Shown piece after piece: positions 46,657-61,659 of a stretch of DNA of 64,000 bases. The DNA comes from Parapedobacter defluvii (GTDB taxonomy: Bacteria > Bacteroidota > Bacteroidia > Sphingobacteriales > Sphingobacteriaceae), in contig NZ_BMIK01000003.1 of assembly GCF_014642075.1 (NCBI RefSeq), forward strand, positions 186,001-250,000, written 5' to 3'. The notes beneath the pieces were generated by a model. It saw only the letters and a program-made list of their open reading frames with translations. It was not told the DNA's origin and searched no databases. The stretch's first letter is position 1; every line of letters begins with the position of its first letter. Position numbers and translations under genes: made by a program.

Positions 46657-49410
46657 TTAGAATGTTATCCTGACCTGTGCACCGACGATGCTTCTGCTTC
46701 CGCCAATGTAGGTGGGAAAACCAATGGTGTCGCCACTGTTTCCCGCGTCAATCATGTAGCGGGTATCAAACACATTTTTGCCATATGCGCCTATCTCATA
46801 GCCGATACGATTCACAGCAAACCGGTATCCGGCCGTGAAGTTCGCCAGTCCGTATCCTTCCTGATACAAGTCGTCGCGGTTGTTGTCTTCAAAATATACG
46901 CCGGACTTATAGGAATACGTTGGTCTCAAATAGACGGATGACCGGCCATTGAGCGGTACGTCTGCATCGACACCGATGGCGAAACTGTGATCGGGCGTCA
47001 GCCGGAAACGATTACCTGCATATTCCTGTGGGTTTCCGTTTTCATCTGTGTCGTTAAATTTCCCATCGATATACGCATAATTGCCAAAAACATTGACCGT
47101 GGGGGTGATGAAGTATCGCAGGCCGGTTTCAATGCCGAAACTATGCGCTTTGCCACCATCATCGGCCAGCAATTGCGGCGCAATACTTCCCGGTATCTGC
47201 TGCAACGACAGGGTCTGAAAGTTGGACCAGTCGTAATAATAGGTGCTTAGTTCGTATCCTAGTTTCCCGTCAGCTACCAACCCCTTCAATCCTGCTTCAT
47301 AGCTCCATACTACTTCCGGCTTTAAATACGTAGTTTCTGAAGGAATGATCGAAATAACCCCCGGCCTCCGACCCCGTGACACACTGCCATAAATATTGTT
47401 GCGACCGAATACGTAGTTCAACGCCAGCCGCCCTACATACGAATAGTAATTTTTGCTGGCATATATCGTCCCGTCGGATACGGGGTTCAATAAATTGGGC
47501 GAACCGTTATTAGCAATCATACCAAACACGCTTGGCGGCGAAGCAGCATCAGCCCGATAACCGCCCCGTTGGGCTTCATACGTGCCACGAAGACCTGCGG
47601 TAAGCTTCAACTGCTCGGTCAGGTCAAATGTGCCATCCGCAAATAGTTCAACCGCCTGATTTCTGCCGTAGGTGGTATACGTCTCGTTATGTGCGTGATT
47701 GATGGGGCTGCCGTCTAGCAGGGTGACCAACCCGATCAGTTGCTCGGGCAATACACCTTCGGGTAACATGCCCGACTGAAGCAGTTGCTGCCATGTGATG
47801 CCCGGGGGCAAGCCTCCCGGTATCAGTTGGTTGATCAAACCCAATGCCAGCGGTTGCAGGTCAGGCAGGTTTTCCACCAGCTGGGGTCGTCCATTTGCGA
47901 TGACCGGTTCGGTATGAAAAAGCTGCTGTATCTGCTGGGTGAGCGCCTGCACCTGCGCATCCGGCAATCCGAGGGATGCACCGAGCTGGCCGACCTGGCC
48001 GGATAACTGACTGTTCAGTATCGGGGCAATGTAAGCCGGATATAATACCTGTTCGTTTACCCGCATCGGCACTTCCTGTGAAGAGTTTTCGTAAAAATAA
48101 CCGGCTCCGAGGAATCCGGAAAACCGGTTATTATTTTCATAGGTAAATCGAAATTCCTGGCTATACTGCGTTCCTTTCGCTAGTTCAGAAAGCCACAACA
48201 GTTGGGCCGGAGTGCCGTCGGCATCAAAAGATTCGTCACTGTCAAAGGCCCGGAAACCCGAAAGGGACGACAAGCGCCATGCATCTCCCAAGCGGTGGTC
48301 TACCAACAGGGTGGCCCCACCCACATGCCGTTTTATATACAGGTCTTCGCCCTGCTCCAGATCGGCAAATGTGTTGGGATCGGTATCCCCGCCCGCCGGG
48401 GCAAAACGCTTGCTCTTGAAGCTGGTACCCGGATAATTGTCGTACTGATAATTCAGGATCAGATCGGCCGTTGTATTCGTTCCGCCCCATAAACGGGTGC
48501 TGTTGCGCAGTGCGATGACTTCCTTCCCGTTGAGCCGGCCGCCGGAAAGGTTTCGGATAAATCCATCCCTCCCTTCGTAGTTGAACGCGAATCGGTTCGC
48601 TAACTTGCCCGCAACGATCGGGGTGTTGAGATAACCATTGACAAACCGATGGTTGTATGCCCCGTATCCTCCATTTACCTCGGCTCCCAGCCGATCCTGT
48701 GCCTTATTTTGAATGATGTGCAGCGCACCGATCTGGGCTCCCCGTCCGAAGAGCGTACCCTGAGGCCCTTTGGCCACTTCCACCCGTTCGATATCGAACA
48801 ACTCGACCACCGAGGCCCGCGAACGCGAAATGGAAATTCCATCCTGAAAAATGGAAATGCGCGGCTGCGTACGCGAATCGCCATCGTCCGAAGTAATACC
48901 CCGGATCACATAGCCCGGATTATTGGGGCTTTGCAACTGTACTTCCATGCCGGGAATAAATGCGGACATCTCATCCATTTGCCGCATGTTGAGCCGGTTG
49001 AGGGTTGCACCCGACAGAGTACTCACCGTAATGGGTACTTCGATGCTGGTTTGTGTTCGGCGCTGTGTGCTGACCACAACCTCGCCCAATGATATTTGCC
49101 GCGTACTGAGCACGATGTCGTCAAGCTGTTGATGGCCATCGCCCACCGTTAGCTCGACGTTGTATCCCACGTGGCCTTGATAGGTCACCGTAAGCCGGTA
49201 AGATCCGGGAACCAATCGATCGAAACGAAACGTACCATCGGCTTGGGTTTGGGTAAGCTGATTCGTCCCTTCCAGCGATACGGTTGCACCAACTAAGGGG
49301 AAACCGGCTTCGTCCGCTACTTTGCCGGAAACGCTGCCTTGCTGGGCATATGCCGACATGCAAAAACCAAGGGAGAATAAAAGGATAAAGGAGGTAAAAA
49401 TAGCACGCAT
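46657..49410 (-). CDS. TonB-dependent receptor (non-SusC type) with carboxypeptidase-like N-terminal domain
   Basis: The product is about 917 residues from the ATG at 49410 (a TTG further upstream overlaps the -7 box). After a signal peptide (ends SAYAQQ) come a CarboxypepD_reg domain (about 25-105), a TonB-box region GEVVVSTQRRTQTSIEVPITV, a plug with VRGI/IRGI and EVAKGPQGTLFGRGAQIGAL, and a barrel ending RSIVGAQVRITF. There is no STN domain and no SusD partner. A roughly 100-residue Gln/Leu/Pro-rich insertion (about 480-580) lies in the barrel region, probably an extracellular loop. It is co-transcribed with the EEP-family protein, and both lie between the phosphonate operon and the acyltransferase. 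The ligand is unknown. Confidence 0.92.
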   Translation of the reverse strand: MRAIFTSFILLFSLGFCMSAYAQQGSVSGKVADEAGFPLVGATVSLEGTNQLTQTQADGTFRFDRLVPGSYRLTVTYQGHVGYNVELTVGDGHQQLDDIVLSTRQISLGEVVVSTQRRTQTSIEVPITVSTLSGATLNRLNMRQMDEMSAFIPGMEVQLQSPNNPGYVIRGITSDDGDSRTQPRISIFQDGISISRSRASVVELFDIERVEVAKGPQGTLFGRGAQIGALHIIQNKAQDRLGAEVNGGYGAYNHRFVNGYLNTPIVAGKLANRFAFNYEGRDGFIRNLSGGRLNGKEVIALRNSTRLWGGTNTTADLILNYQYDNYPGTSFKSKRFAPAGGDTDPNTFADLEQGEDLYIKRHVGGATLLVDHRLGDAWRLSSLSGFRAFDSDESFDADGTPAQLLWLSELAKGTQYSQEFRFTYENNNRFSGFLGAGYFYENSSQEVPMRVNEQVLYPAYIAPILNSQLSGQVGQLGASLGLPDAQVQALTQQIQQLFHTEPVIANGRPQLVENLPDLQPLALGLINQLIPGGLPPGITWQQLLQSGMLPEGVLPEQLIGLVTLLDGSPINHAHNETYTTYGRNQAVELFADGTFDLTEQLKLTAGLRGTYEAQRGGYRADAASPPSVFGMIANNGSPNLLNPVSDGTIYASKNYYSYVGRLALNYVFGRNNIYGSVSRGRRPGVISIIPSETTYLKPEVVWSYEAGLKGLVADGKLGYELSTYYYDWSNFQTLSLQQIPGSIAPQLLADDGGKAHSFGIETGLRYFITPTVNVFGNYAYIDGKFNDTDENGNPQEYAGNRFRLTPDHSFAIGVDADVPLNGRSSVYLRPTYSYKSGVYFEDNNRDDLYQEGYGLANFTAGYRFAVNRIGYEIGAYGKNVFDTRYMIDAGNSGDTIGFPTYIGGSRSIVGAQVRITF

Positions 49411-49472: not shown

Positions 49473-49506
49473 AACGCCGAGGTGATCCTATCACCTTAGG
49501 GGCGTT
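49473..49506 (-). terminator. terminator of the phosphonate operon
   Basis: The stem is built from AACGCC/GGCGTT (49473-49478 and 49501-49506) and GGTGAT/ATCACC (49481-49486 and 49490-49495). On the minus strand it is followed by the U-rich TTGTTTATTG. It overlaps the stop codon of the FAD oxidoreductase gene. Confidence 0.7.
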
Positions 49507-50653
49507 ACAGCCCCATCCGCTTCCCGATGATGTATTCCGCCAATCCGAATGACAACGTCATCCCAGCGCCGCTGAGTGCATTGAATACAAACACATTACT
49601 TTCGGGCTGTTCAAAAACGTAACTTTCACCATTGGTCATTTTCGCATATACACCGTTCCAGGACTGGGATAACCGGCGGTCTTTGAACCTGGCAAATGTA
49701 CCGAGGTAGTCTATGATTAACTGATTGATCAGTTGCCGGTCAAATGGATCGGGGCTAAGTCCATATTCATGCGAATCGCCGATCGTGAGCTCCCCGTTTC
49801 CGTGCTGGGATACCATCACATGGATACCCCATTTGAGATATTCGGCCATTTCCTGCTCGGCCCATTGCCGGAGCGCATGAATGGATGCAGCGGCTTGAAA
49901 CGATCCGTAGTGCAATAACGAAAGACCACCACATAACGGCGGCCCGATGCGCCAGTCGTTGGGCTGAGGTACCAAGCGCATCATCTGCAATTTACATTTG
50001 GTAATCGGCAATGACGCAAATAAATTGGGATACAGGGTTTCGAAGTCCGCACCGCTGCACAACAGGACCAAATCGGCTTTCTGGACTGCCTTTCCGCCTA
50101 CATAGATCGTCGAATCGGATATCTGGTTAATGCAGGTATTCCACCGAAATACCACACTGCACCGTTCTTCAAGATAAGCTGCGACGCCACCGATGGCTTC
50201 CCTCGGATCCACGATGACCTCTTCGGCGCTCCACAATGCTCCTTTCAGTCCGGAAGGGTTTGATGCGGGCGACTTCTGGATAACCTGTTCAGGGGTGAGC
50301 ACGGCGCAATCGCGATCCCGACCGTACAGCGATACGTAATCTTCCATCACAGCGAGTTCCGTATCGGAATACGCCAGGTGCAGCGAACCCGTTTGTTCGT
50401 GCCAGATTCCTGCTGTCGAACAGATGTCTTTCCAGGTATCGCGTGAACGGATCGCCCATTGGTAAGGCAAGCCCGCAGGCTGACCAACCGGCCAAACCAT
50501 TCCGAAATTACGGATGGACGCCCCCAATGCCCGCGGGTGACGTTCGTATACGGTTACCTGAAAATTCCGTTCTGCCAACGCCTTTGCGGCGGCTAACCCA
50601 ACAATGCCGGCACCCACAACGACAGCAGTTGGCTTTATCATTCCATTACTCAT
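49505..50653 (-). CDS. TIGR03364-type FAD-dependent oxidoreductase of phosphonate clusters
   Basis: The 382-residue protein has an N-terminal Rossmann FAD site (VVVGAGIVGLAAAKALAERN, about 12-31) and a DAO-type (glycine/sarcosine oxidase-like) fold with the C-terminal FNALSGAGMTLSFGLAEYI segment that closes on FAD. It resembles the TIGR03364 family, repeatedly found beside phosphonatase genes. Members (PbfC) are reported to oxidise N-methyl-2-aminoethylphosphonate or related amines to phosphonoacetaldehyde. The ATG overlaps the stop of the transporter gene as ATGA (50650-50653), so translation is coupled. It is the last gene of the operon. Confidence 0.82.
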   Translation of the reverse strand: MSNGMIKPTAVVVGAGIVGLAAAKALAERNFQVTVYERHPRALGASIRNFGMVWPVGQPAGLPYQWAIRSRDTWKDICSTAGIWHEQTGSLHLAYSDTELAVMEDYVSLYGRDRDCAVLTPEQVIQKSPASNPSGLKGALWSAEEVIVDPREAIGGVAAYLEERCSVVFRWNTCINQISDSTIYVGGKAVQKADLVLLCSGADFETLYPNLFASLPITKCKLQMMRLVPQPNDWRIGPPLCGGLSLLHYGSFQAAASIHALRQWAEQEMAEYLKWGIHVMVSQHGNGELTIGDSHEYGLSPDPFDRQLINQLIIDYLGTFARFKDRRLSQSWNGVYAKMTNGESYVFEQPESNVFVFNALSGAGMTLSFGLAEYIIGKRMGL

Positions 50654-51978
50654 ATATTCGAATAACTAATTGTTTCAATCAACGGAGGCTTGTCCTTCCC
50701 CTCCCGATGCTTCCATTTCCGGCGGAAATAGCCCAGGGACAATCCCACGAAGAGCATGCCCAGTCCGGCAGCTACCATCAATGCTTGTTCGTAAAATGTG
50801 CCCCAACTTAAACGAACGAATCCCAATTCCCTGACGATAAGCACACTCACGCTACCCAGGTAACCAACAGCGTCTGCTATATACATCACAAAACCAATAT
50901 TGCCCCGATGTTGGAAGCTGGCGAGCATACGCTCGAAAAAAATAGCATTGTAAGGTATGTAAACCATGTATAGCCCTAAACCTGCAACAGACATCCAACC
51001 GATGCCACCGATCATCCCTTGCTGGAAAAGCCAGGTAGAAATACCGGCACACAAACACCCGCCAATGACCATGAAATGGATCAATATAAACGCTTTCCGG
51101 TTGTTTTTCACAAAGATCAACAGTCCCATCATGAGCAAAACAACCAAAGAAATTGCCGTATCTGTCTGCACATAGATGTGTTTATCTGATATTCCGATCG
51201 CTGACCAAATTTCAACTTCGAAGTTATCGCGTACATCACGGATTACCGTGAATAGCAGATATGCGCTCACGGTAAGCACCAAACCAGGCAGATAAGCCTG
51301 AACAAAAGCATGTCGCTCTTTACGGTCCATGGCCTTCCGTTCTGTACGCAGGGCCTTGTCCCGGGCGTCTGGCAAGGGCAGCCACTCCAGCAACAGCGTG
51401 CAGATCAATAGTGGGATCACGAAAAGCAGGCCTGTACAAAAAGGCATCCATATTTCGGGAATGTGGTGGTTCTCAATCAGCGTACGGCCCGTGGTTTTGA
51501 CAAATCCGGATGCAAAAACGAGGCTTACGCTCATTACCGCGCCCAGAAACTCGGTGGCCCTGCGCCCTTCAAGGTAGGAAAAAACCAATCCCCAGATCAT
51601 GCCAAGCGGTAATCCATTGATAAACAGAAATACAATGTTATAGGGTGCCGGCACCATGGCGAATCCCAACAATGCCAACCAGGCGATACCCACAAGTGTG
51701 ACGATCTTATACCCCCTGCCACGCGCTCCCAACTCGGCGATAAACCGGATACCGTAGAATTTACTCAGCATGTATCCGAATACCTGTGCAATGACCAGCC
51801 AAACTTTGTAATCAACTCCCAACAGGGAGGCTCCCTCGAAGGTACCGGCGGTAAATGCCTTGCGGAAAGCATACATGCTGGTATAACAGCCAAAGGCCGC
51901 CAGCGCCATCAACACCATCGCATAGCGGTAAGGCAATTGCGCTACTTTTGTCCGTATTGTGCCGACCCAATGTCGCAT
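50650..51978 (-). CDS. DUF5690-family MFS-like transporter
   Basis: The 442-residue integral membrane protein has about 12 hydrophobic segments in two halves (YAMVLMALAAFGCYTSMYAFRK at the start; NIGFVMYIADAVGYLGSVSVLIV near the end), with a charged central loop (RDKALRTERKAMDRKERHA). The pattern is that of MFS carriers, and the sequence matches what I know of DUF5690. Its start is one base past the PhnX-like gene stop and it overlaps the oxidoreductase gene, so it probably imports the phosphonate or its product across the inner membrane. The substrate is inferred from context only. Confidence 0.85.
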   Translation of the reverse strand: MRHWVGTIRTKVAQLPYRYAMVLMALAAFGCYTSMYAFRKAFTAGTFEGASLLGVDYKVWLVIAQVFGYMLSKFYGIRFIAELGARGRGYKIVTLVGIAWLALLGFAMVPAPYNIVFLFINGLPLGMIWGLVFSYLEGRRATEFLGAVMSVSLVFASGFVKTTGRTLIENHHIPEIWMPFCTGLLFVIPLLICTLLLEWLPLPDARDKALRTERKAMDRKERHAFVQAYLPGLVLTVSAYLLFTVIRDVRDNFEVEIWSAIGISDKHIYVQTDTAISLVVLLMMGLLIFVKNNRKAFILIHFMVIGGCLCAGISTWLFQQGMIGGIGWMSVAGLGLYMVYIPYNAIFFERMLASFQHRGNIGFVMYIADAVGYLGSVSVLIVRELGFVRLSWGTFYEQALMVAAGLGMLFVGLSLGYFRRKWKHREGKDKPPLIETISYSNI

Positions 51979-51979
51979 A

Positions 51980-52663
51980 TCAGGCAGATACGATGTCCAC
52001 TACGTCACCGATGTCATCAATGATGTGGGTCGGATGATACTCTTCAAGCTGCTCGCGGGTATATGCACCGGTCGTTACACCGATCACATACCGGCAGCCT
52101 ACATTTTTTCCTTCGTTGACATCCACCTCCGTGTCCCCTACCTTGGCTACCTGCGATGCATCGGCAATACCGGCACGCTTCATCAGTTCGCGGATCATGT
52201 CGGGGTACGGCCTTCCCTGCGGCACTTCATCCGATGCAACCATATAATCGATTAATTCCCGGTCAAACCAACCCAGCTTTTCGACGATGACATCGGCAAT
52301 ATTGCGGGAGAACCCGGTATTGAGTGCAATTTTGATCCCCATGTTGCGTAACCGGGCAAACGTTTCCTCCACATTCGGCAGGGGCTGAATATCTTTGGTT
52401 TCGTAGTACCGCACCATACGGCCGACGAACGACCGGTGAATGGCGGCCACATGATGTGCATCGATTACTTCCGTATCGCCCTGATGGGCTTTCAGGATTT
52501 CCCGGATCGCCTTATTCTTTTCGTAACCCATGTACGGATTGATCTGGTCTAACGGAATCTGGTAACCGAATTTATCCAGTGCCGCCTGAAACGCTTCACC
52601 CACGTTATCGTTGTCCCTCACAGTTGTGCCGGCAATATCAAAAACTACTAATGCAATGCTCAT
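51980..52663 (-). CDS. PhnX-like HAD hydrolase (phosphonoacetaldehyde hydrolase-like)
   Basis: The product is 227 residues. Motif I is DIAGTT (9-14), the DxAGT variant typical of phosphonatase and unlike the usual HAD DxDxT. Lys49 in MGYEKNKAI aligns with the Schiff-base lysine of PhnX (MGxxK). In motif III an Arg (GRPYPDMI) replaces the usual Lys, also as in PhnX. Motif IV is KVGDTEVDVNEGKNVGC. PhnX cleaves the C-P bond of phosphonoacetaldehyde to acetaldehyde and phosphate. The retained lysine makes C-P cleavage credible. The gene is preceded by a heptamer tandem repeat (52682-52711). Assigned to the phosphonatase-like group (TIGR03351); the exact substrate is not certain. Confidence 0.85.
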   Translation of the reverse strand: MSIALVVFDIAGTTVRDNDNVGEAFQAALDKFGYQIPLDQINPYMGYEKNKAIREILKAHQGDTEVIDAHHVAAIHRSFVGRMVRYYETKDIQPLPNVEETFARLRNMGIKIALNTGFSRNIADVIVEKLGWFDRELIDYMVASDEVPQGRPYPDMIRELMKRAGIADASQVAKVGDTEVDVNEGKNVGCRYVIGVTTGAYTREQLEEYHPTHIIDDIGDVVDIVSA

Positions 52664-52681
52664 CGCTCTCTTCTGCTTTTT

Positions 52682-52711
52682 ATTTTTTACTTTTTACTTT
52701 TTACTTTTTAC
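52682..52711. repeat. heptanucleotide tandem repeat upstream of the PhnX-like gene
   Basis: On the minus strand GTAAAAA is repeated four times and followed by the variant ATAAAAA. The array begins right at the stop codon of the upstream gene and ends about 18 bases before the PhnX-like ATG, filling the position of the ribosome-binding region. Slipped-strand changes of copy number are possible. Confidence 0.7.
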
Positions 52712-53638
52712 TTAGTAAGCTGGTTCTTCAAACCCCATGAAAGCAGGCTTGATGGGCCGACCGACCCACGCATACGGCTGCGTAACTCCCAATGCCAACG
52801 CTGCTGTTGCCGCAATGTCATAGGTATAAGTGGGTTGCTGCACCACATATCCAGCCTTTACTCCCTGCCCGGCAATTAGGATGGGAATTGTCACTTCTTC
52901 CGGATGCTCACCTCCGTGTCCATGACCGATGCCACCATGATCAGAAGAGATGATGAGCAATGTCTGATCGGCAATACCTGCCTGGGCAATTCCCTCCAGG
53001 ATGTGTGCGATCAGGGAATCTGCATGAGTGATGGCGGCCAGGTATTCCTTGGTCATATGTCCATAATGATGACCAGCGCCGTCTACATGGTCTAATTGGA
53101 TAAATGCGAATACAGGTTTCCGGGTCGCGATGTATTGGCTAAACGCTTCCGCCGTGGAATCCGGTGTATCGAAATGCGCATCGTAATTGACGGACGCCTT
53201 ATCGTACAGGCGGCCAAAGCCACCCCATTCGTAGACAGATCCAATTTCAGCATCGGGCAGTTGCGCACGTACTACATCGAATATGGACGGAAAGCGTCCG
53301 TTTTCGCGCTGTACGACAGGCGGAAGCCGGACGCTGTCCAATTCCCACTCATTGCTCGTTATTCCGTGTGCCTCCGGTCCTGCGCCGTGCATCATGGAAG
53401 CCCAATTCGGGCTGCTGACCGATGGGAGAACTGTACGCGCATTCCAAACGGCGCTACCCTGCGCAACCAAGCTGTCCATGGTCGGGGTAGCAGCCTTACG
53501 CAATCCTGCGCTACTCAATCCGTCAATGCCAATGATAATTACGTGCTGGATGCCCTGGGGTGTTTTTTGTGAGCCGGCCGTGCAGCTTACTGCCAAAAAC
53601 ACGACGGCCATCAATAGGTATTGTTGTGATCGCTTCAT
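52712..53638 (-). CDS. alkaline-phosphatase-superfamily lipoprotein (type I phosphodiesterase-like)
   Basis: The product is 308 residues with a lipoprotein signal (LAVSC, Cys19). The fold of nucleotide pyrophosphatase/phosphonoacetate hydrolase-type enzymes is shown by GIDGLSSAG (metal ligand), a nucleophile loop PSVSSPNWASMMHGA with Ser in place of the usual Thr, LDHVDGAGHHYGHM, SDHGGIGHGHGG and EVTIPILIAGQG; all metal ligands appear present. It would act in the periplasm or at the surface on a phosphodiester, phosphomonoester or phosphonate. Its place in the phosphonate operon (one base after the preceding gene stop) raises the possibility of a phosphonate substrate, but nothing in the sequence decides it. 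Confidence 0.85.
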   Translation of the reverse strand: MKRSQQYLLMAVVFLAVSCTAGSQKTPQGIQHVIIIGIDGLSSAGLRKAATPTMDSLVAQGSAVWNARTVLPSVSSPNWASMMHGAGPEAHGITSNEWELDSVRLPPVVQRENGRFPSIFDVVRAQLPDAEIGSVYEWGGFGRLYDKASVNYDAHFDTPDSTAEAFSQYIATRKPVFAFIQLDHVDGAGHHYGHMTKEYLAAITHADSLIAHILEGIAQAGIADQTLLIISSDHGGIGHGHGGEHPEEVTIPILIAGQGVKAGYVVQQPTYTYDIAATAALALGVTQPYAWVGRPIKPAFMGFEEPAY

Positions 53639-53639
53639 C

Positions 53640-55010
53640 TTATAATTTTATCTTGTTAAATGCATGTTCAAATACGGATAGTATGGTATCGCATTGCGTT
53701 TTGGTAATGGTCAACGCCGGGCGGATGGTCGCGACATTGCCTTCGATGACTTTAAAGGCTACGCCATTTTCCATGCAGGCATACATCACCTGCTCGGCGT
53801 AAAAGATGGCGCGTTCCTTTGTTGCGCTATCCGTAACCAGGTCAAGACCAATATGCAGTCCCTTTCCGGCCACGTGGCCGATAACCGGGAAGCGTTGTTG
53901 CATATCACGGAATCCCTCCAGCAGATAGGCTCCCATCGCAGCGGCATTCTCGATGAGCCTGTGTGCTTCCAGATAGTGGATGGCAGCAAGGCCTGCCGTG
54001 GCACTCAACGGATTCTTCTCATGCGTATAATGGCCAATGGAACGATGGCTCACAACGTTGAATTGCTCCTTGGTGACAATGCCCGCAAGCGGCAATACCC
54101 CGCCGCCCAGGGACTTCCCAAGCACCAACACATCCGGTATGACGTAATGCTCGCAGGCAAACCAGCGGCCGGTTCTTCCCAGCCCTTCGATGATTTCGTC
54201 GAAAATCAGAAAGATACCATGCCGATCACAGCATTCGCGCACACGCTCCCAATAGTACCTTGAAGGGACAACGGGTGTCGCGGATATGGGTTCGGCTACC
54301 AAGGCTGCGACATCCGGGTGCCGCTGCAAAATCACGTCCAACTGCCGGATGTACTGTTCGTCAATGGCTTCCGTATCGGTCAGTCCCCAAGGGTTTCGGT
54401 AGTAATTGGGAAATTCCACATGGAAGGCGCCGGGAACCATCGGACCGTTACCGCCTGTGAAATGCTCTTCGCCACCTATACTTGCGGCCTGAAACCCGTT
54501 GCCGTGGTAAGAATCCCAATAGGAAAGCGTCTTCCACCGTCCGGTGACCTGTTTGGCCAGCGTGACGGCCATCTCAATAGCTTCTGATCCCCCGGGGCAG
54601 AATAAGACGCGGGTAAGGGGTTCCGGTGTAATCGCAACCAGCTTTTGTGCAAGCCGGATGGCCGGGATGTTTGTATAACGACGGGGCGTAAAGGCCAACT
54701 GAGACTGCAATTGCTGAATGACCGCCGTTAGTACCTCCGGATTGGAAAATCCCGCGTTATGGACGCCGTTACCATGTAAATCGAGGTATTCGTTACCCCT
54801 TAGATCGTAGATGCAAGCACCTTCGGTTTTGGACAAGACGTTCATAACCGGCGTGGAGAGCGCCTGGTGCAGGAAGACAGCGGCATCTGCCTCTATCCAG
54901 TCCCGGGTTTGCGCGTCGAGCCCCGAAAGATATCGGTTACGCAGTTCACTGGCGTTGATATCTCCTTGTTCACGGGAGATGGGATCGTTCGTGATTTGTA
55001 TGACACTCAT
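53640..55010 (-). CDS. class III PLP-dependent enzyme, PbfA-like
   Basis: The 456-residue protein has a class III aminotransferase fold. The PLP lysine is Lys299 (LVLGKSLGGGVLP), the pyridine-nitrogen aspartate is Asp271 (IFDEIIEGLGRTG), and the phosphate-binding turn is PGGSEA (139-144). In phosphonate clusters this family includes PbfA, an ammonia-lyase that turns (R)-1-hydroxy-2-aminoethylphosphonate into phosphonoacetaldehyde, the PhnX substrate, as well as true transaminases. It is cytoplasmic. A same-length paralogue lies at 56888-58258. Its ATG is one base past the phosphoesterase stop. Confidence 0.82.
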   Translation of the reverse strand: MSVIQITNDPISREQGDINASELRNRYLSGLDAQTRDWIEADAAVFLHQALSTPVMNVLSKTEGACIYDLRGNEYLDLHGNGVHNAGFSNPEVLTAVIQQLQSQLAFTPRRYTNIPAIRLAQKLVAITPEPLTRVLFCPGGSEAIEMAVTLAKQVTGRWKTLSYWDSYHGNGFQAASIGGEEHFTGGNGPMVPGAFHVEFPNYYRNPWGLTDTEAIDEQYIRQLDVILQRHPDVAALVAEPISATPVVPSRYYWERVRECCDRHGIFLIFDEIIEGLGRTGRWFACEHYVIPDVLVLGKSLGGGVLPLAGIVTKEQFNVVSHRSIGHYTHEKNPLSATAGLAAIHYLEAHRLIENAAAMGAYLLEGFRDMQQRFPVIGHVAGKGLHIGLDLVTDSATKERAIFYAEQVMYACMENGVAFKVIEGNVATIRPALTITKTQCDTILSVFEHAFNKIKL

Positions 55011-55011
55011 A

Positions 55012-56877
55012 TTACCTCTTTTTCTGTATGGCTAAGTAATCCTTCAGGTTTCCGGTTACGTCGTATACGTTCAGCCTCAGCGTATCGCCAACAACCTGTA
55101 CCATGCAATAATGATGACCACGGTAGGTCTTGGCGCTGTACCATGCGCGTGTGGGTGTGAAATCCTCTAAATTGCCCCCAGCGCCACCTGCCTGGACATA
55201 GGTCACCCCGCCCTGTTCGATACGCCCTTCGCGTATCGGATAAGTACGCTGGTAGGTATGCAAGTGGCCATAAAAAACGAAGTCTACCCCGTAGCGTTCG
55301 TACAGCGTCGTCAACTGCTGCAGGTTGGTATCGCCCAACGCAGATGGTCCGGTCCACGAATTACCATAGTCATCGTCGTCGGCAGAATAAATGGCATGGT
55401 GATGCGCGACGAATTTCCACCGCGCAGTGGATGCTTTCAGTGCTTCTTCCAGCCATTGGTACTGTTTTCCTCCCGGTTGTAAATCCATCGGTTTATTGGT
55501 GTCCAGCATGAAAAATTCCGCATCGCCATAAACGAACCGGTAATAACCTTCGGTATCGGCAGGTAATGTGTGATAACGCCCATACCAGTAGAGGTCATCT
55601 TCACCATTGCCCGGCACGGGGTAAAAAGGAATCCGCTCCAGTAACTGTCCCATTCCGGTGAAATACTCGTAGTTCCACTGATACTTATTATCCCTGACGC
55701 CATCGTCGGTGATGTCGCCAAGATGGAGGGCAAAATCGGGGCGTTCATCCCAAGCGAGTTTCGCAATCCGGTTGTTGATGTGCGGGCGCGCTTCGGTATC
55801 ACCGATGACCGCAAAAGCGTACGCCTGTGTATCGGATCGGACGGTCGCAAATGTGCAGGTACCCGAACTTAGGGTCGTGCCCGCGGCATCTGTCGCTTCA
55901 ATTTCATAGAAGTAGGCCGTGCCGGGGCGAAGCCCATCAATCTTTACGTTGCGGATGTAGCTCCGTATGCCTCCCTCGTGGAGTTCCCCTGTTTCCGGTT
56001 GCAGTACCACAGAATCCGCCAGCGGCAGCCGTTCACCATATCGCACCACTGACCGTGCCGGCCGGTCGGTTTCCCAAACCACTTGGATGCTTTCTTCCTT
56101 GACGTTATTGAGGTATGGGCCCGCATTGAAGTGAAACCGGTCAGGTAACAGCCGCCCGCCCTCCACCATATCCTGAAGCAATTTAAAGCGGGCGCTGATC
56201 TCAGATTGCCCGAGTGCACCATCCAGCAGCCGGACATTCTTCATCAAATCGCCGAGCTGCATATCCGGTTCTTTTCCAAAATATCCGGCTAGTTCCAGGG
56301 CATCATCGAATAGAAACGTCTTATCGGTTTCGAGCTTACGTTTATCAACCAACTCGCCGTTGACATACAGACACAACCTCCCGTCCTGATAAGTGCCCAC
56401 CACATGCCACCATCGGTCTTTCCAACCCTCCCCGTCCAACAAATATTCAATTGTAGCAGACTGAACAGAAAACCATACCCGGTCATGATGATAGCCCAGC
56501 ACCCAGGAGCGTCCGGCGCCCGATTGCCCATCCGGCATGTATAAAAGGGCACCTACGGGTTGGTTTACATGGTTGATTAACCAGCACTCCACAGTAAATC
56601 CATCCGTTGACCGGTACCCGGTCGGGATCGGTACCGTCAGGCAGTCAGTCGGAGAAACTCCCAGCAACCGATAACGTGACCGGTCGGAAGCCAGCAATGC
56701 AACCGGTAAACTATCCCGTTGCAGCTGATACACCTTGGGGTTCCGCGCCTGTTGCCCCAATGTATAGTCCGGCCATAGCCATTGATCGACCCATACCCCT
56801 CGGTCTTGCGCATATCCGTAGGTCAGCAAAGACAGCATGAAATAGCCCAAAAAAGCAAAAGATAGTTTACTCATCAT
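55012..56877 (-). CDS. LamG / FN3 / metallophosphoesterase fusion
   Basis: The product is about 621 residues from the ATG at 56877, with a signal peptide (ends YGYAQ). The LamG/concanavalin domain spans about 86-235 (GFTVECWLINH, WWHVVGTYQDGRLCLYVNGEL), the fibronectin-III-like purple-acid N domain about 250-345, and the phosphoesterase core about 352-600 with GDT (359-361), GDIT (387-390), HHHAIYS and GHLHTYQRTYP. The third motif reads GNGE (423-426) instead of GNHE, losing the usual catalytic histidine. The LamG domain probably binds a surface carbohydrate or polymer. It lies between the two PbfA-like genes in the same operon. Confidence 0.87.
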   Translation of the reverse strand: MMSKLSFAFLGYFMLSLLTYGYAQDRGVWVDQWLWPDYTLGQQARNPKVYQLQRDSLPVALLASDRSRYRLLGVSPTDCLTVPIPTGYRSTDGFTVECWLINHVNQPVGALLYMPDGQSGAGRSWVLGYHHDRVWFSVQSATIEYLLDGEGWKDRWWHVVGTYQDGRLCLYVNGELVDKRKLETDKTFLFDDALELAGYFGKEPDMQLGDLMKNVRLLDGALGQSEISARFKLLQDMVEGGRLLPDRFHFNAGPYLNNVKEESIQVVWETDRPARSVVRYGERLPLADSVVLQPETGELHEGGIRSYIRNVKIDGLRPGTAYFYEIEATDAAGTTLSSGTCTFATVRSDTQAYAFAVIGDTEARPHINNRIAKLAWDERPDFALHLGDITDDGVRDNKYQWNYEYFTGMGQLLERIPFYPVPGNGEDDLYWYGRYHTLPADTEGYYRFVYGDAEFFMLDTNKPMDLQPGGKQYQWLEEALKASTARWKFVAHHHAIYSADDDDYGNSWTGPSALGDTNLQQLTTLYERYGVDFVFYGHLHTYQRTYPIREGRIEQGGVTYVQAGGAGGNLEDFTPTRAWYSAKTYRGHHYCMVQVVGDTLRLNVYDVTGNLKDYLAIQKKR

Positions 56878-56887
56878 CTGTGATTCC

Positions 56888-58258
56888 TTATGAATTGGAT
56901 CGAAACGCATCCTCAAGTATATCCAGCGCTTCGTGCAGCTTCTGCTCGGAGATGACCAATGGCGGGTAAAGGGACAGCACATTCCCACCGGACACCTTGA
57001 AGCTTAATCCACGGCCAAGGCAGTGGTATAAAACACGCTCTGCCAGCACAGGGTCGGGCGTCTTGGTTTCCCTGTCTTTCACCAACTCCACTCCCCATAG
57101 TAAACCCACACCCCGTACATCGCCGATGGCTTCATACGCTGCTTTCATTGCTTCAAGGCGGTTAGCCATCAGTTGCCCCATCCGGTCGACATGCGGCAGG
57201 ACGCCGTGTGCATCCATGTAATCCAGTCCCGCCAACGCAGCGGCAGCACCCAACGGACTTTTTTCGTGGGTGAAATGCCCGAGCGAAACCTGCGCCGCGA
57301 TATTTAATTCGTCTTTACAGAGCATGGCTGCCATCGGCATAATGCCTGCTCCCAGTCCTTTGCCCAACACAAGCATGTCGGGCACGATGCCGTAGTGCTG
57401 GTAAGCAAAAGACTTACCTGTACGCCCCATGCCGATCGGGATTTCGTCAAAAACCAACAGTACGCCATGTTGATCACACAGTTCCCGGATACGCCGCCAA
57501 TAGGCCTGCGAAGGAACGTGTACCGTAGTGCTTCGTACGGTTTCCGCCACCAATACGCCGATATCTCCTTCTTTCTCCAATACATACTCCAGGTAGTCCG
57601 CGTAAGCCATGTCCCCGTCCTGATCGTTCGGGTTAAACCACATGCCCCGGTAACTATCCACGGGCGGCACGTGCACACTCCCCGCCATCAACGGACCCAG
57701 CCCCTGCTGGAAAACATACTCCCCGCCCAGTGAAATGCTATCCATCGACGCACCGTGAAAGGAGTCGTACATGGCCAATGTTTTAAACTTACCGGTATGG
57801 ATGCGGGCCAGTTTCAACGCCATCCCAATGGCCGACGTACCCCCCGGTGCGAAAAGCACTCTATTCAACCGGTGTTCGGTCAGCGCCGCCAGCCGCTCCG
57901 CCAGCTCGATGGCCGGCAGGTTGGTAAATCGCCGTGGACAGAATGCCAGGATATCCAGCTGCTGCTTCACGCGATCGATGACAAAGGAATTGTTGTATCC
58001 CAACTGGTGCACGTTGTTGCCATGAAAATCGATATAGGTCTTACCCGCAAGACTCGTCAGCTGCGCCCCGTCGCTCGATGCAAGTACATCGAGGCAGGGA
58101 GTGGAAAGTGCCTGATGCAGGAAATGGTCGGCATCCCGCTGCAAAGCATCCCGGGTTGCGTCGTCGGTGAGCGCGTCATGCCATAGCTTACGTTGCCCGC
58201 TTACATTAAGATCCCCCTCTTCAACTAAATGCTTTGCTGTATTTTTGTTATCGCCCAT
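56888..58258 (-). CDS. class III PLP-dependent enzyme, PbfA-like (first gene of the phosphonate operon)
   Basis: The product is 456 residues from the ATG at 58258 (the open frame runs further upstream through an AT-rich spacer and is not credible there). The PLP lysine is Lys300 (LVLGKGLGAGIMP), the aspartate Asp271 (VFDEIPIGMGRTG) and the turn PGGTSAIG (138-145). It aligns end to end with the enzyme at 53640-55010 (shared FLHQALSTP, RRxTNLPAI, GHxTHEKxPL), but the PGG-turn residues differ (TSAIGM versus SEAIEM), suggesting different substrates. Either could be a lyase of the PbfA type or an aminoethylphosphonate transaminase. Confidence 0.82.
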   Translation of the reverse strand: MGDNKNTAKHLVEEGDLNVSGQRKLWHDALTDDATRDALQRDADHFLHQALSTPCLDVLASSDGAQLTSLAGKTYIDFHGNNVHQLGYNNSFVIDRVKQQLDILAFCPRRFTNLPAIELAERLAALTEHRLNRVLFAPGGTSAIGMALKLARIHTGKFKTLAMYDSFHGASMDSISLGGEYVFQQGLGPLMAGSVHVPPVDSYRGMWFNPNDQDGDMAYADYLEYVLEKEGDIGVLVAETVRSTTVHVPSQAYWRRIRELCDQHGVLLVFDEIPIGMGRTGKSFAYQHYGIVPDMLVLGKGLGAGIMPMAAMLCKDELNIAAQVSLGHFTHEKSPLGAAAALAGLDYMDAHGVLPHVDRMGQLMANRLEAMKAAYEAIGDVRGVGLLWGVELVKDRETKTPDPVLAERVLYHCLGRGLSFKVSGGNVLSLYPPLVISEQKLHEALDILEDAFRSNS

Positions 58259-58273: not shown

Positions 58274-58290
58274 GTTTAGCAATACTAAAC
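58274..58290. promoter_or_regulatory. inverted repeat upstream of the phosphonate operon
   Basis: GTTTAG (58274-58279) and CTAAAC (58285-58290) flank CAATA, 16 bases ahead of the first ATG. It may be an operator; TAGTATTG on the minus strand here is one base off TAnnTTTG. Confidence 0.35.
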
Positions 58291-58340
58291 ATTGTTTATT
58301 AACAAAATCTGCAATTGGAATTAAGAAATCGTTAACACAA

Positions 58341-58376
58341 AAGCGGGGTGCCTTGAACGAACAAGGCACCCCGCTT
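58341..58376 (-). terminator. strong terminator after the LamG/phosphoesterase operon
   Basis: A perfect 15-bp stem (58341-58355 with 58362-58376, arm AAGCGGGGTGCCTTG) has a 6-base loop, and TTTT follows on the minus strand. It lies 13 bases past the stop of the phosphoesterase gene and separates the two right-hand operons. Confidence 0.85.
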
Positions 58377-58389: not shown

Positions 58390-59568
58390 TTACTGGCTTT
58401 GTTTTTTTAATAAGAGCTGATCAAATACCTGTCCGTGGATGTCAATGGCTTGAAAATGCAATTCATCTCCTGCCACGCGCACGTAGCCAAAGTGATGTCC
58501 ATATTTCAGTTTGTTTGTAAACCACGAGCGCAGCGGTGCCGGTGTCTCTAAACCACCGCCGTTACCGCCGATCTGTATATAGGTGATTCCATTGCGATTA
58601 TCCACCCCGTTGTTCCGTATCGGCCAGGTACGTTCGTAGGTATGAACGTGGCCGTAGAATACCAGATCCACGCCGTATTTTTCATACAACGCCGGCAAAT
58701 GGGCTAATTCTGGGATGCCTAATGTGGACTTGCCCACTTGGGTATTGCCATGATCGTCGTTATCCGACGAATAAATGCAGTGGTGGTGGACCACAATCTT
58801 CCACCGGGCAGTCGATTTCGCCAGTTCGGCTTCCAACTCCTTGTAATGTTCACTACCGACCGATAGATCCTGATTGGAATCGAAGAAGATGACCTGGGTA
58901 TTTCCATAGGTCACGGTAAAGGTCCGCTTGTTTTCGGGATGGCCGAGGTATTTATGGAAGTACGGTGCATCCCGCTCGTGGTTACCGAGCGTGGCATAGA
59001 CAGCATACTTGCTCATAAACGGTTGTCCCTGCGGAAGGAACTGCCCTACCCAATCGCTGAGACGATAGCCATTGTCTACCTGATCTCCGGCGTGGACGGC
59101 AAAATCGGGCCGCTCCGACTCAGCCAGCGTAGCAATCTGGCCCCACACATTTGGATTGGGCCTTCCCTGTGAATCGGAAAACACAATAAAGCCGATCGGG
59201 GTACCCTCGTTTACCGCGGTTTTGAATGGATACACTTCGCTATAAAGGGTATCGCCTTGCTGGCTTACACTCACTGTCCGGTAAAAGTACTCGGTCTGCG
59301 CCTGTAGACCTGTCAGCTGCACGGTATGGAAAGCCGTATCGGCATCAACGCTACTCATGCGTGAAAGATTGGGTTTCTTTGCGTCAAACTCGGCGGGTCC
59401 GTATTGCACCCATCCTGCGGTCGGATGCTCCGTTTCCCACTTGACCACTATGCTCGTCTGGGTAGCCCACTGCAAATAGGGAAGCACAACGAAGCTTGGC
59501 TTATCTGCGGCAAACCCTGCCTGCCAAGCCATCAGTAACATACAAAATTGAAAAACCTGCTTAATCAT
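58390..59568 (-). CDS. purple-acid-phosphatase-like metallophosphoesterase
   Basis: The 392-residue protein has a signal peptide (ends GFAADK), a fibronectin-III-like N domain (about 24-120, TSIVVKWETEHPTAGWVQYG), and a phosphoesterase core with FSDSQG in place of the first GD-type motif, GDQVDN, GNHE, HHHCIYS and GHVHTYERTWPI. It is close in its second half to the LamG fusion at 55012-56877, but keeps GNHE and lacks LamG. Secreted phosphomonoesterase activity is likely. It is the last gene of its operon, 15 bases after the Ig/LamG gene. Confidence 0.88.
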   Translation of the reverse strand: MIKQVFQFCMLLMAWQAGFAADKPSFVVLPYLQWATQTSIVVKWETEHPTAGWVQYGPAEFDAKKPNLSRMSSVDADTAFHTVQLTGLQAQTEYFYRTVSVSQQGDTLYSEVYPFKTAVNEGTPIGFIVFSDSQGRPNPNVWGQIATLAESERPDFAVHAGDQVDNGYRLSDWVGQFLPQGQPFMSKYAVYATLGNHERDAPYFHKYLGHPENKRTFTVTYGNTQVIFFDSNQDLSVGSEHYKELEAELAKSTARWKIVVHHHCIYSSDNDDHGNTQVGKSTLGIPELAHLPALYEKYGVDLVFYGHVHTYERTWPIRNNGVDNRNGITYIQIGGNGGGLETPAPLRSWFTNKLKYGHHFGYVRVAGDELHFQAIDIHGQVFDQLLLKKQSQ

Positions 59569-59583
59569 CGCTATTTTTATCAG

Positions 59584-61116
59584 TTAATCGTTGTACAATG
59601 CGGCCACTTCCGCCGCTGTAAGCGCTTTTTTATAGAGGCGCAGTTCGTCCATAAAGCCGGTCAGCGCCTTACGGGTATCGTCACCCGCATTGTAATCGCC
59701 GGTTCCGCCTTCCCAAAGTGTGAATGGATAGTCGTTGACCTCATCCCATAATGGCCCGACAAGTGTACTCAGGTCGTCACTGGAGGGATTCCCTTCCTGT
59801 GCATAGGCGATACCGTCAATATATACCTGCAACCGTTTTTCGGTTTGGTTGATCACCATGGTAACCATGTGCCACTCATTGTCTGACAATGCAGGAGCCG
59901 GCGGATTGGTCTGCCCTGCCCGCCAATCGATACGGGTACTGGTGGTTGCATCACTGCCGGCCACTTTCACGATCCAGCCTCTCCCGGTTTCCGGCGTACC
60001 ATTATAGGTAGCGCCGCCATCGGTGCATAGCACCAATCCCGGATTACCTCCGCTATCCCAATCGGAATTCGAAAACAAGACGGGGTCAGAACCGATTCCC
60101 TGAAGTTTGACCCAAAGGTTGATGCTGAAGTTTTGGGTAGCTGAGGGCCGCAACAAATCGTGCCTGGGCAAGACCGCATAGGACCCGGCTCTAAACTCGA
60201 CGACTTTACCGCGGATGGGATCCTGCACAAAGCCTGCTTCTGCCGTCGCCTTCGCTCCCAATTTAGCATCGAATTTATTGCCGCTGGCATCGGTCAGGTC
60301 GTCATCCAAAGGCAGATAAACCACCACATCGTCGGTGCTGCCTGCCGTAGTCGTAAATGCCCAAGGCGATGCTTCGTCAAACCCTTTAAATGCTTTGCCA
60401 TTGATATCGACAAAAACGCCTTCATCGATGGTCACGCGGTAATCCGTGGCAAACGCAAGTGGTGCCGGTAAATTAATGGCTACTTCACCGCCATTAATTA
60501 CTACTTGCTGGCTGGCCACGGGTAAATCGGTGATCGTGTTGCCATCCGGCCCGAAAATCCGGATATTTCCGTCGCCCTTGCTGACTGTTGAGGCAAATGC
60601 CAGGTGAAGGTCAAACAGCGATGCCTCTGTGCCCCCATTTTCCGGCACCATGGATAGTAAGGGCAGACCGCTTTCTCCTGCGGTGGTGAATGTCCAGGAA
60701 GTGCCCTCGGGCAACCCCATGAATTCATTGTTCAACAGATCCATTACGATACCCCGGTCCAATGTGACGGAATACGCTTCATCCGCGTTGAATTCCGATG
60801 GAACGATCGTGACAATCCGCTCATCTTCCCCGATTGTCACGTTATCGGAAGTGACATCGATTACCTGCATGCTGCCCGATTCCCCGGTGATGGTAATGTT
60901 GCCCTTGCCTTTTTTGACAAACTCGTCAAATGTTAATATCAGCCTGCTATCAATCGCAACACCTTCCACCCCGGATACCGGGTTATAACTGATAACGGTG
61001 GGATTCGCCGTGTCGATGGTGTGGTCAAAATCTTCTTTGCACGCACTCAGGCAAGCCAACGCCGCAACGATCAACGTCAGCCGCGCCCGCCTATCCCTGT
61101 AATTGTTTGTCTTCAT
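59584..61116 (-). CDS. Ig-like/LamG surface lipoprotein
   Basis: The product is 510 residues with lipobox LSAC (Cys26). Two bacterial Ig-like (Big_5-type) repeats follow, about 38-142 and 148-258. Each has the pattern of a loading sequence, P-x-x-x-x-x-V, then LxLxFxxxVxKGxGNIxIxG, and ends in WxFTTxxGxxG. A C-terminal LamG/concanavalin-like domain (about 266-505, FSINLWVKLQG, NEWHMVTMVINQTEKRLQVYIDG) completes it. No catalytic domain is seen. It probably binds a polymer at the cell surface, bringing the neighbouring phosphatases to it; this is inferred from domain content. Confidence 0.87.
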   Translation of the reverse strand: MKTNNYRDRRARLTLIVAALACLSACKEDFDHTIDTANPTVISYNPVSGVEGVAIDSRLILTFDEFVKKGKGNITITGESGSMQVIDVTSDNVTIGEDERIVTIVPSEFNADEAYSVTLDRGIVMDLLNNEFMGLPEGTSWTFTTAGESGLPLLSMVPENGGTEASLFDLHLAFASTVSKGDGNIRIFGPDGNTITDLPVASQQVVINGGEVAINLPAPLAFATDYRVTIDEGVFVDINGKAFKGFDEASPWAFTTTAGSTDDVVVYLPLDDDLTDASGNKFDAKLGAKATAEAGFVQDPIRGKVVEFRAGSYAVLPRHDLLRPSATQNFSINLWVKLQGIGSDPVLFSNSDWDSGGNPGLVLCTDGGATYNGTPETGRGWIVKVAGSDATTSTRIDWRAGQTNPPAPALSDNEWHMVTMVINQTEKRLQVYIDGIAYAQEGNPSSDDLSTLVGPLWDEVNDYPFTLWEGGTGDYNAGDDTRKALTGFMDELRLYKKALTAAEVAALYND

Positions 61117-61166
61117 ATTTGATCATATTATTAGTTCTTCTTCAAAAGGCTAGGATTGCCTCCCCA

Positions 61167-61646
61167 TTATTTCCTTGTCAGTGTCACGCTGAAATCGCCT
61201 TCTCCTTTTTCGCCCGTATCAGTATTTTCCCACCCCATGTAAAATGAAAGCGTCAACGAGGTAGCGGATACGTTGATCGTGAATTCATCAACTGGCCCTA
61301 CCTCAGACAAGGCGACTTGTGCGGCATCCGCTGTTCCGGTAACAGACCAAGTTCCCGCCGCGGACCCAAAGACAATCGGACAATCCTTTGCGGAAAATTG
61401 CGCCGGATATCCATCGGCGTCGGTTGTAAACACCAAACGCATGTTTCCGAAAATTTCACCGGGAATGTCGTCAGGCGTAACGATTGCCGTCGGATCTCCC
61501 CACGTGCCGTCCAGCCTTCCGGCGACCAGCTGTTCAGCATTCAGCCCGTGGTCGCGCACGAGATCCTTCTCGCAGGCCCCCAAGGCCAGGCAGCACACCA
61601 CCACCAGGGCAAATAGGCTGCGTTTAAAAATAAGTTGTGTTCGCAT
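61167..61646 (-). CDS. small lipoprotein of unknown function
   Basis: The product is 159 residues with a lipoprotein signal (LALGAC, Cys25). The mature part is beta-rich with alternating hydrophobic residues (MRLVFTTDADG, GTWSVTGTADAAQVALSE, EFTINVSATSLTLSFYM, GDFSVTLTR), similar in feel to the lipocalin-like lipoproteins common near SusCD loci. I do not recognise a named family. It lies between the alkaline-phosphatase/LamG and Ig/LamG genes in one operon. Confidence 0.75.
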   Translation of the reverse strand: MRTQLIFKRSLFALVVVCCLALGACEKDLVRDHGLNAEQLVAGRLDGTWGDPTAIVTPDDIPGEIFGNMRLVFTTDADGYPAQFSAKDCPIVFGSAAGTWSVTGTADAAQVALSEVGPVDEFTINVSATSLTLSFYMGWENTDTGEKGEGDFSVTLTRK

Positions 61647-61659
61647 TGTATTCGGAGGA

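Follow-up and report, generated by a model that had tools for sequence, protein, structure and literature searches.

A 64,000-nucleotide stretch of contig NZ_BMIK01000003.1 from Parapedobacter defluvii (positions 186,001 to 250,000; hereafter the window) contains a compact set of genes that we believe to be involved in the use of aminophosphonates. In the ORF (open reading frame) list of the window, seven ORFs occupy 49505-58258, all on the minus strand. They encode two PbfA-family proteins (PbfA1 and PbfA2), two phosphoesterases, a PhnX-like hydrolase, a DUF5690 protein, and an oxidase of the PbfD family (Table 1). From PbfA1 onward, the gaps between them are 10, 1, 1, 48, and 1 bases, followed by a 4-base ATGA overlap. 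These genes, their coordinates, and their spacing (including the overlap) agree with an earlier sequence-only reading of the window. That reading ended the locus at 49505 and 58258, which is too narrow: genes on the same strand continue down to 45666 on one side and, on the other, across 58390-63297 and past the window.

Table 1. Features of the locus, in window coordinates. Bit scores are followed by the cut-off of the family model.
Feature	Coordinates	Strand	Basis or remark
PbfA1, PbfA-family lyase	56888..58258	-	NF049939, 678.6 bits (cut-off 525); falls in one clade with the Sphingobacterium SGR-19 PbfA encoded beside DUF5690
LamG-like domain plus purple-acid-phosphatase-type metallophosphoesterase	55012..56877	-	PF13385, PF16656, PF00149; ATG taken from the sequence
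PbfA2, divergent PbfA-family paralog	53640..55010	-	NF049939, 633.6 bits (cut-off 525); separate clade
NPP-type lipoprotein of the alkaline phosphatase superfamily	52712..53638	-	PF01663, 105.6 bits; lipobox by eye
Heptamer repeat, CTTTTTA x5.4, in the 48-base gap	52676..52713	.	strand not assigned
PhnX-like C-P hydrolase, TIGR03351 type	51980..52663	-	214.3 bits (cut-off 218.9)
DUF5690 carrier, MFS fold, proposed aminophosphonate importer	50650..51978	-	PF18943, 547.4 bits (cut-off 25); model pLDDT 88.6
PbfD-family FAD oxidase (TIGR03364)	49505..50653	-	411.4 bits (cut-off 285.1)
TonB-dependent receptor	46657..49410	-	PF13620, PF07715, PF13715; same strand; ATG taken from the sequence
Exo_endo_phos family protein	45666..46655	-	PF03372; 1 base after the TonB-dependent receptor
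Palindrome TGTTTAGTATTGCTAAAC, proposed operator of the XRE-cupin regulator	58274..58291	-	15 bp before pbfA1
Terminator-like hairpin	58341..58376	-	perfect 15-bp stem, then TTGTGTTAAC; would end the upstream unit
Purple-acid-phosphatase-like metallophosphoesterase	58390..59568	-	PF16656, PF00149
Big_5 plus LamG protein	59584..61116	-	domain scan
159-aa lipoprotein-like protein	61167..61646	-	no Pfam match; a 164-aa gene has the same place in L145
NPP-type phosphodiesterase domain plus LamG	61660..63297	-	domain scan

The gene set recurs across the phylum. Among 395 sampled genomes, DUF5690 is present in 43 (above its cut-off in 42), TIGR03364 (PbfD; E ≤ 1e-70) in 33, the PhnX-like hydrolase (E ≤ 1e-50) in 27, and PbfA (E ≤ 1e-120) in 15. 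DUF5690 was found above its cut-off in 30/33 genomes with PbfD (p = 5.7e-32), in 26/27 genomes with the PhnX-like hydrolase (p = 1.2e-28; the exception is G179), and in 12/15 genomes with PbfA (p = 1.6e-10); these p-values ignore shared ancestry. The exceptions for PbfA and for PbfD are the same three genomes, G215, G258, and G352. Where DUF5690 co-occurs with one of these genes, the two are usually within 10 kb of each other (25/30 genomes for PbfD and 23/26 for the PhnX-like gene; if a genome has several copies of DUF5690, the copy on the same contig was used). The commonest direct neighbour of DUF5690 is PbfD. What the sequence-only reading called an unusual composition is thus a recurrent one, and the locus is one version of a widespread Bacteroidota arrangement, not a chance assembly.

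We also read the gene content of 46 DUF5690 loci over 13.9-19.5 kb, using labels from models built on these loci (NCBIfam served to check sample members). Another phosphonate gene was found in 33 of the 46: PhnX-like in 24, PbfD in 23, Phn-HD in 13, PhnW in 8, and PbfA in 6. At L070, DUF5690 occurs together with PhnA (TIGR02335), PhnY (TIGR03250), and a PhnW-cluster gene. A phosphonate gene is also present in 69 of the 80 nearest named loci (PbfD in 65, PhnX-like in 43, Phn-HD in 38), although these loci were picked for closeness and are related to each other. One named DUF5690 locus lies, by its title, outside the phylum, in Dyella sp. (L217); the PhnX-like protein encoded beside it scores 203.4 bits. 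Sphingobacterium sp. SGR-19 (L145) has nearly the same order as P. defluvii: SusC, SusD, fasciclin, DUF5007, AlkP-LamG, a 164-aa gene, purple acid phosphatase, PbfA, and DUF5690. PbfD and the PhnX-like gene follow DUF5690 there on the opposite strand, and then XRE.

PbfA and Phn-HD never occurred together at a locus (PbfA is at 6 and Phn-HD at 13 of the 33 sampled loci, and at 1 and 38 of the 80 named loci). We do not claim that they are exclusive alternatives, as both are present in genome G126, though at separate loci. Two candidates were set aside. The two PbfA copies in L132 looked like a parallel to those in the window, but the second copy is nearest to HemL-type models. The supposed PbfA of L076 is nearest to GABA transaminases, so we placed L076 in the non-phosphonate group.

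PbfA1 and PbfA2 are both full-length matches above the NF049939 cut-off and are 44% identical to each other. PbfA forms phosphonoacetaldehyde from (R)-1-hydroxy-2-aminoethylphosphonate (R-HAEP) (PMC8154272, PMC12366243). The TIGR03364 gene belongs to the PbfD family, O2-dependent oxidases that convert N-methyl-2-aminoethylphosphonate (N-methyl-AEP) and, less efficiently, 2-aminoethylphosphonate (AEP) to phosphonoacetaldehyde (PMC10590968). The same paper gives activities for two PbfD proteins, one characterised PbfD being a member of TIGR03364, and proposes a PhnW-free route from PbfD to PhnX in which PbfD substitutes for PhnW. In the P. defluvii genome, no PhnW scored above the cut-off (the best match has 38.3 bits and the cut-off is 400.8). 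Because the TIGR03364 gene belongs to a family that is proposed to replace PhnW, the missing PhnW is not a gap in the pathway. Profile searches of the genome gave no matches to Phn-HD either, and none to PhnJ of the C-P lyase (PF06007) at E ≤ 0.001. Given the activities published for other members of their families, PbfA1, PbfD, and, less surely, PbfA2 are predicted to act in an aminophosphonate pathway. Phosphonate catabolism with PbfA feeding a PhnX-like hydrolase, which the sequence-only reading had proposed, is supported by the family scores and by the co-occurrence.

The hydrolase scores 120.3 bits against the PhnX model TIGR01422, which is below the cut-off of 220. It is of the TIGR03351 type, and 18 of the 27 genomes in the phylum that match TIGR03351 at E ≤ 1e-50, including this one, score under that model's cut-off. 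Lys49 aligns with Lys53 of PhnX, which forms the Schiff base. Asp9, Lys49, Arg151, Asp177, and Asp181 are invariant in 70/70 aligned PhnX-like proteins, and Ala11 is conserved in 69/70. Ala11 is at the +2 position after the nucleophile, where PhnX also has alanine; phosphatases of the HAD-type superfamily carry an acid/base aspartate there. The PhnX of Bacillus cereus (1fez, 1rql, 2iof) shares with the PhnX-like proteins the HAD family, the nucleophile, the Schiff-base lysine, the GRPYP motif, and the DxxxD metal site; it differs in the TIGR01422 score, which is under the cut-off for ours, and in the residues at positions His56 and Tyr128. Among the 70 aligned proteins, the position of His56 is alanine in 64 and the position of Tyr128, which we take to be important in PhnX, is phenylalanine in 54. 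His56 is catalytic in PhnX (PMC11203657). The retention of the Schiff-base lysine, which the sequence-only reading had emphasized, does hold, but with alanine in place of His56 it is not sufficient to identify the protein as PhnX. Since the nucleophile, Lys49, and the aspartates of the magnesium site are conserved while His56 is not, the enzyme probably works like PhnX without being PhnX.

The DUF5690 protein matches PF18943 over the full profile. Its AlphaFold2 model, which was built from 46 sequences (mean pLDDT 88.6, pTM 0.86), has the fold of the major facilitator superfamily (MFS) and only leans toward the organophosphate:Pi antiporter (OPA) family within it. In a Foldseek comparison to the PDB, the top six matches were all to G6PT (SLC37A4), the glucose-6-phosphate/phosphate antiporter, and VIA-align also ranked SLC37A4 first (Z 31.8, rmsd 3.1, 358 residues). 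By sequence, we found no support for DUF5690 as a member of OPA: profile, single-sequence, and hhalign comparisons were all negative. A search of PDB sequences with the 46-protein DUF5690 profile found nothing even at E of 10, and neither did a search with the single sequence. DUF5690 (Y32, Y36, R39, K40, F42) and the L132 carrier seem to share a YxxxYxxRKxF spacing, but this was seen by eye and no alignment backs it.

A stronger argument than the fold comes from the three genomes that have PbfD and PbfA but lack DUF5690. In each of these, an MFS carrier adjoins PbfD (G215 and G258) or lies one gene beyond it (G352). The best NCBIfam matches of these carriers are to TIGR00881 and then GlpT, at 163-248 bits, which is under the cut-off of 407.75. 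A GlpT-like carrier thus stands at DUF5690's end of the cluster. We found no phosphonate-binding protein in a profile search of the P. defluvii genome, and no OPA carrier above the cut-off. Taken together, the gene association, the fold, and the place shared with GlpT-like carriers make it likely that DUF5690 is an aminophosphonate importer, and they favor its role as the pathway's carrier as first suggested from the sequence. The closest parallel is AepP of Pseudomonas putida BIRD-1, a relative of GlpT that was proven to be an AEP permease by deletion and complementation (PMC8316502). AepP is an MFS carrier of AEP, its orthologs lie beside AEP catabolic genes, and we propose the same role for DUF5690; unlike AepP, DUF5690 shows no sequence relationship that could be detected with either the OPA model or any of three GlpT-like carriers.

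On the envelope side, the N-terminus of the LamG-metallophosphoesterase resembles a signal peptide (by eye), and the three solved chains that this protein matched are two purple acid phosphatases and a diphosphonucleotide phosphatase. In the PDB, the AlkP lipoprotein matched NPP/ENPP enzymes, at best with 1.2e-13; its match to phosphonate monoester hydrolase was weaker (1.9e-8). Beyond the window, the same strand continues with genes for DUF5007, fasciclin, SusD, and a 1022-aa SusC-like receptor, then a second SusD, a TonB-plug protein of 801 aa, and a regulator with XRE and cupin domains. Two SusC/SusD-type pairs and phosphoesterases are therefore found in one strand-consistent locus, which is how loci like the phosphate utilisation systems (PUS) and the polysaccharide utilisation loci (PULs) are recognised. 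At the other end, the TonB-dependent receptor at 46657-49410 is perhaps in the same unit as the catabolic genes, but it and the Exo_endo_phos gene might have a promoter of their own.

Among the 46 loci, a phosphoesterase or phospholipase C (PLC) is present in 20/33 with phosphonate genes and 0/13 of the others, SusC/D in 16/33 and 0/13, respectively, and XRE in 20/33 and 0/13. These contrasts are partly circular because the models, those for phosphoesterases among them, were built from genes that recur in the same loci. With a looser threshold, and with L076 still counted as a phosphonate locus, the counts are 20/34 and 0/12 for phosphoesterases and 22/34 and 2/12 for SusC/D or TonB receptors. 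A PLC gene like that of L155 was found in 21/69 named phosphonate loci, 1/34 sampled phosphonate loci, and none of the others. The L155 member, which is the one that was domain-scanned, is a phospholipase C family protein (PF04185 with PF05506). The chemistry of PLC would release AEP from a phosphonolipid in one step, and the PLC proteins of these relatives may do so. The recurrence of phosphoesterases and PLC at related loci favors an esterified phosphonate as the putative source. The sequence-only reading had likewise suggested an esterified substrate that is released by exported phosphoesterases; this is still the natural reading of the gene content, and gene content is what it is drawn from.

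In Chitinophaga (L191-L195), DUF5690 lies directly after a SusC-SusD pair, and our models found no phosphonate catabolic gene within 10 kb; an XRE-cupin gene is present at L191, L192, and L195.

The locus seems to have two transcription units. The longest stem in the region belongs to the hairpin at 58341-58376, and since this perfect 15-bp hairpin lies between the purple-acid-phosphatase-like gene and pbfA1, the upstream limit of the catabolic unit is likely a transcription boundary. (As a class, terminator-like sites are not enriched in the region, with 22 versus 20.1 expected.) The palindrome TGTTTAGTATTGCTAAAC ends 15 bp before the start of pbfA1; like the hairpin, it is absent from the sequence-only reading. 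A near-identical copy (31/33 bases) is located beyond the window, in the interval that separates the XRE gene from the first SusC-type gene (L225:10383-10399), 171 bp before the SusC-type reading frame. So, both units have the site, and we infer that the XRE-cupin regulator binds it. Allowing at most 1 mismatch, the arms of the palindrome are intergenic in 30/69 named phosphonate loci, as compared to 4.0 loci expected to have any match after shuffling, but the named loci are mostly from Pedobacter, Mucilaginibacter, and their kin and are not independent. In 16 of the 30, they end 14-19 bp before a PhnX-like or DUF5690 frame. Among the sampled phosphonate loci, they are found in 6/34 (1.4 expected). 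The promoter itself may account for some of the motif. A scan of the region for promoters was uninformative (19 sigma-70-like sites versus 21.2 expected). As for the heptamer array, it fills most of the 48-base gap between the PhnX-like and AlkP genes, and a three-copy CTTTTTA stretch does not occur anywhere else in the genome; a tract of variable length could tune expression.

We estimate a probability of about 0.66 that this is a PUL-like aminophosphonate utilisation locus, which would capture phosphonates, release them from larger molecules, import them, and break them down for phosphate. First, SusC/SusD-type and TonB-dependent receptors would bind phosphonate-bearing material at the cell surface. 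Phosphoesterases of the LamG-linked, NPP, or purple-acid types would then cut the ester bond, and the free aminophosphonate would cross the inner membrane via the DUF5690 carrier, as suggested by its gene association, its fold, and its replacement by GlpT-like carriers. In the cell, PbfA would convert R-1-hydroxy-AEP, and PbfD would convert N-methyl-AEP and AEP, to phosphonoacetaldehyde, if they have the activities of other members of their families. The PhnX-like enzyme would split the C-P bond via a Schiff base on Lys49, yielding acetaldehyde and phosphate. The XRE-cupin regulator would act on the palindrome before both transcription units.

A broader generalization can be made from the related loci, which we hold tentatively and would rate, as a single joint claim, a little short of even odds. 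DUF5690 would be both an importer family and the marker of a widespread, XRE-cupin-controlled, PUL-like locus of Bacteroidota. SusC/D proteins would capture phosphonolipids or phosphonoglycans; NPP, LamG-linked, or PLC enzymes would release the head groups; and AEP, N-methyl-AEP, and HAEP would be mineralised via PbfD, PbfA, or a PhnZ-like enzyme together with a Schiff-base hydrolase that lacks the histidine.

Several observations weigh against our main interpretation of the locus. First, 13 of the 46 DUF5690 loci lack a phosphonate gene in their vicinity, and phosphonate-linked DUF5690 proteins do not form a single clade. On a tree with 56 rows (45 sampled proteins, the window, and 10 chosen named proteins, with L076 still labelled as phosphonate), the phosphonate label changes 10 times, versus a shuffled mean of 16.8, so the two kinds are clustered yet intermixed. 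Together, these results raise the possibility that the roles of DUF5690 are more than one. The palindrome also appears before DUF5690 at non-phosphonate loci (1/12 with 1.0 expected, and 1/11 with 0.2 expected). In the 80 named loci, the contrast in envelope genes is weaker: phosphoesterase or PLC in 47/69 versus 3/11 (p = 0.016), SusC/D in 46/69 versus 5/11 (p = 0.19), and XRE in 43/69 versus 6/11. As to the carrier, VIA-align placed URAT1 (Z 30.9) in a tie with SLC37A4, with NorA (30.4) near. DUF5690 is absent from the genome's matches to the OPA model TIGR00881 at E ≤ 0.001, and hhalign of DUF5690 against the three GlpT-like carriers gave a probability of 1.3%. The genome does have 15 weak matches to TIGR00881, the best of which (110.8 bits) is on another contig; because the carriers of the relatives score only 163-248 bits, it is possible that a second GlpT-like carrier is encoded elsewhere in the genome. 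Among the enzymes, the hydrolase is 4.6 bits below the cut-off of TIGR03351 and has Ala52 and Phe118 at the positions of His56 and Tyr128. And PbfA2 groups with copies from outside of phosphonate clusters: in the tree, its clade mates in L134 (8836-10194) and L137 (8966-10324) adjoin ADH-family and CN_hydrolase genes.

The catabolic unit might use free AEP, HAEP, or N-methyl-AEP, while the phosphoesterases and SusC/D handle ordinary phosphate esters (phospholipids or nucleotides, for example). Phosphate esters of many kinds are substrates of the NPP and purple acid phosphatase families, the terminator-like hairpin separates the two units, and 13 of the 33 phosphonate DUF5690 loci have no phosphoesterase or PLC by our models. 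Also, genes for phosphate and for phosphonate use occur together in the PusCD loci of Flavobacterium (PMC8115612). But two phosphoesterases are inside the catabolic unit, one between the pbfA genes (10 bases from pbfA1 and 1 base from pbfA2) and the other a single base past pbfA2, and near-identical palindromes precede both units. Given these, and the partly circular contrast in phosphoesterases or PLC (20/33 versus 0/13), we consider a diet of free aminophosphonates to be rather unlikely.

Two other alternatives concern the carrier and the end substrate. DUF5690 might export or exchange a product of the pathway (for example, phosphate, an acid derived from acetaldehyde, or methylamine) and not import aminophosphonates at all. 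OPA carriers exchange organic phosphate for phosphate, the genome has other weak OPA-like MFS proteins, and the 13/46 DUF5690 loci away from phosphonate genes suggest that a commoner ligand may be moved. That the genome has no match to a phosphonate-binding protein, that GlpT-like carriers take DUF5690's end of the cluster in three PbfD genomes, and that AepP is a GlpT-related AEP importer (PMC8316502) all make such export or exchange improbable. Alternatively, the PhnX-like enzyme and PbfA2 might act on another phosphono-aldehyde and aminophosphonate, with an end substrate that is rarer than AEP or HAEP. The replacement of His56 by alanine in 64/70 proteins and of Tyr128 by phenylalanine in 54/70, and the separate clade of PbfA2, would fit with this. 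We doubt it, and give it a low probability, because Lys49, Asp9, Arg151, and the magnesium-site aspartates are invariant in all 70 proteins, the +2 position is alanine as in PhnX, and the gene found most often directly beside DUF5690 is that of PbfD, whose product, where published, is phosphonoacetaldehyde.

A few other observations concern DUF5690 loci and the surroundings of the locus. The loci without a phosphonate gene are L043, L048, L059, L063, L066-L068, L071-L073, L076, L078, and L081, and an Exo_endo_phos gene adjoins at L068. A PHP-domain gene lies directly before DUF5690 in L049 (8430-9275, HisJ-like) and L061 (10874-11731); in L209, L218, and L221, this place is filled by genes of about 282 aa. 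Caulobacter vibrioides, a control genome, encodes a DUF5690 protein above the cut-off. In the window, a fused GNAT (Acetyltransf_5) and acyltransferase protein (43794-45590) is encoded directly downstream of the locus. Farther away are a sigma factor, FecR, SusC-type, and SusD set with BT_3987-like and DUF6528 proteins (34101-43467) and apparent repeats of sigma factor/FecR/SusC/SusD-like runs (5565-33384), the latter judged from ORF size only.

The catabolic enzymes have been published already, as has the PhnW-free route. Like the PbfD-PhnX and PhnWX pathways with PbfA (PMC8154272, PMC10590968), this locus has the PbfA and PbfD families and a route to phosphonoacetaldehyde that does not depend on PhnW, and published reports place PbfD with phnX alone and also within the FCB group (PMC10590968). 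In contrast to those pathways, the hydrolase here is TIGR03351-like and lacks His56, the carrier is DUF5690, there are two PbfA paralogs, and there is an envelope part with SusC/D-type proteins and phosphoesterases. The PUS loci with PusCD of Flavobacterium (PMC8115612) also combine a SusC/D-like pair with phosphoesterases, and one sentence in that paper mentions phosphonate-degrading enzymes and organophosphate transporters as neighbours of PusCD loci. What differs here is the catabolic set, the carrier family, the XRE-cupin regulator, and the shared palindrome, which are described together at the level of genes. Within the literature collection that was searched, no paper was found for DUF5690, PF18943, or TIGR03351. 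Searches of titles and the openings of abstracts found no description of such a locus beyond the papers cited here and none that names Bacteroidota enzymes releasing phosphonates from lipids or glycans. The assignment of the carrier appears to be new, as do the description of the locus together with its regulator and palindrome and the recognition that a hydrolase family without His56 usually cleaves the C-P bond there.

If our interpretation is correct, it would provide a testable function for DUF5690, which is found in about a tenth of the sampled Bacteroidota-type genomes (43/395). It would also explain how members that lack PhnW and a phosphonate-binding protein could use aminophosphonates. 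If the source is indeed esterified, the locus would lead to enzymes capable of freeing phosphonates from lipids or glycans. More broadly, the design of the PUL, which is known for harvesting glycans, would extend to carbon-phosphorus compounds.

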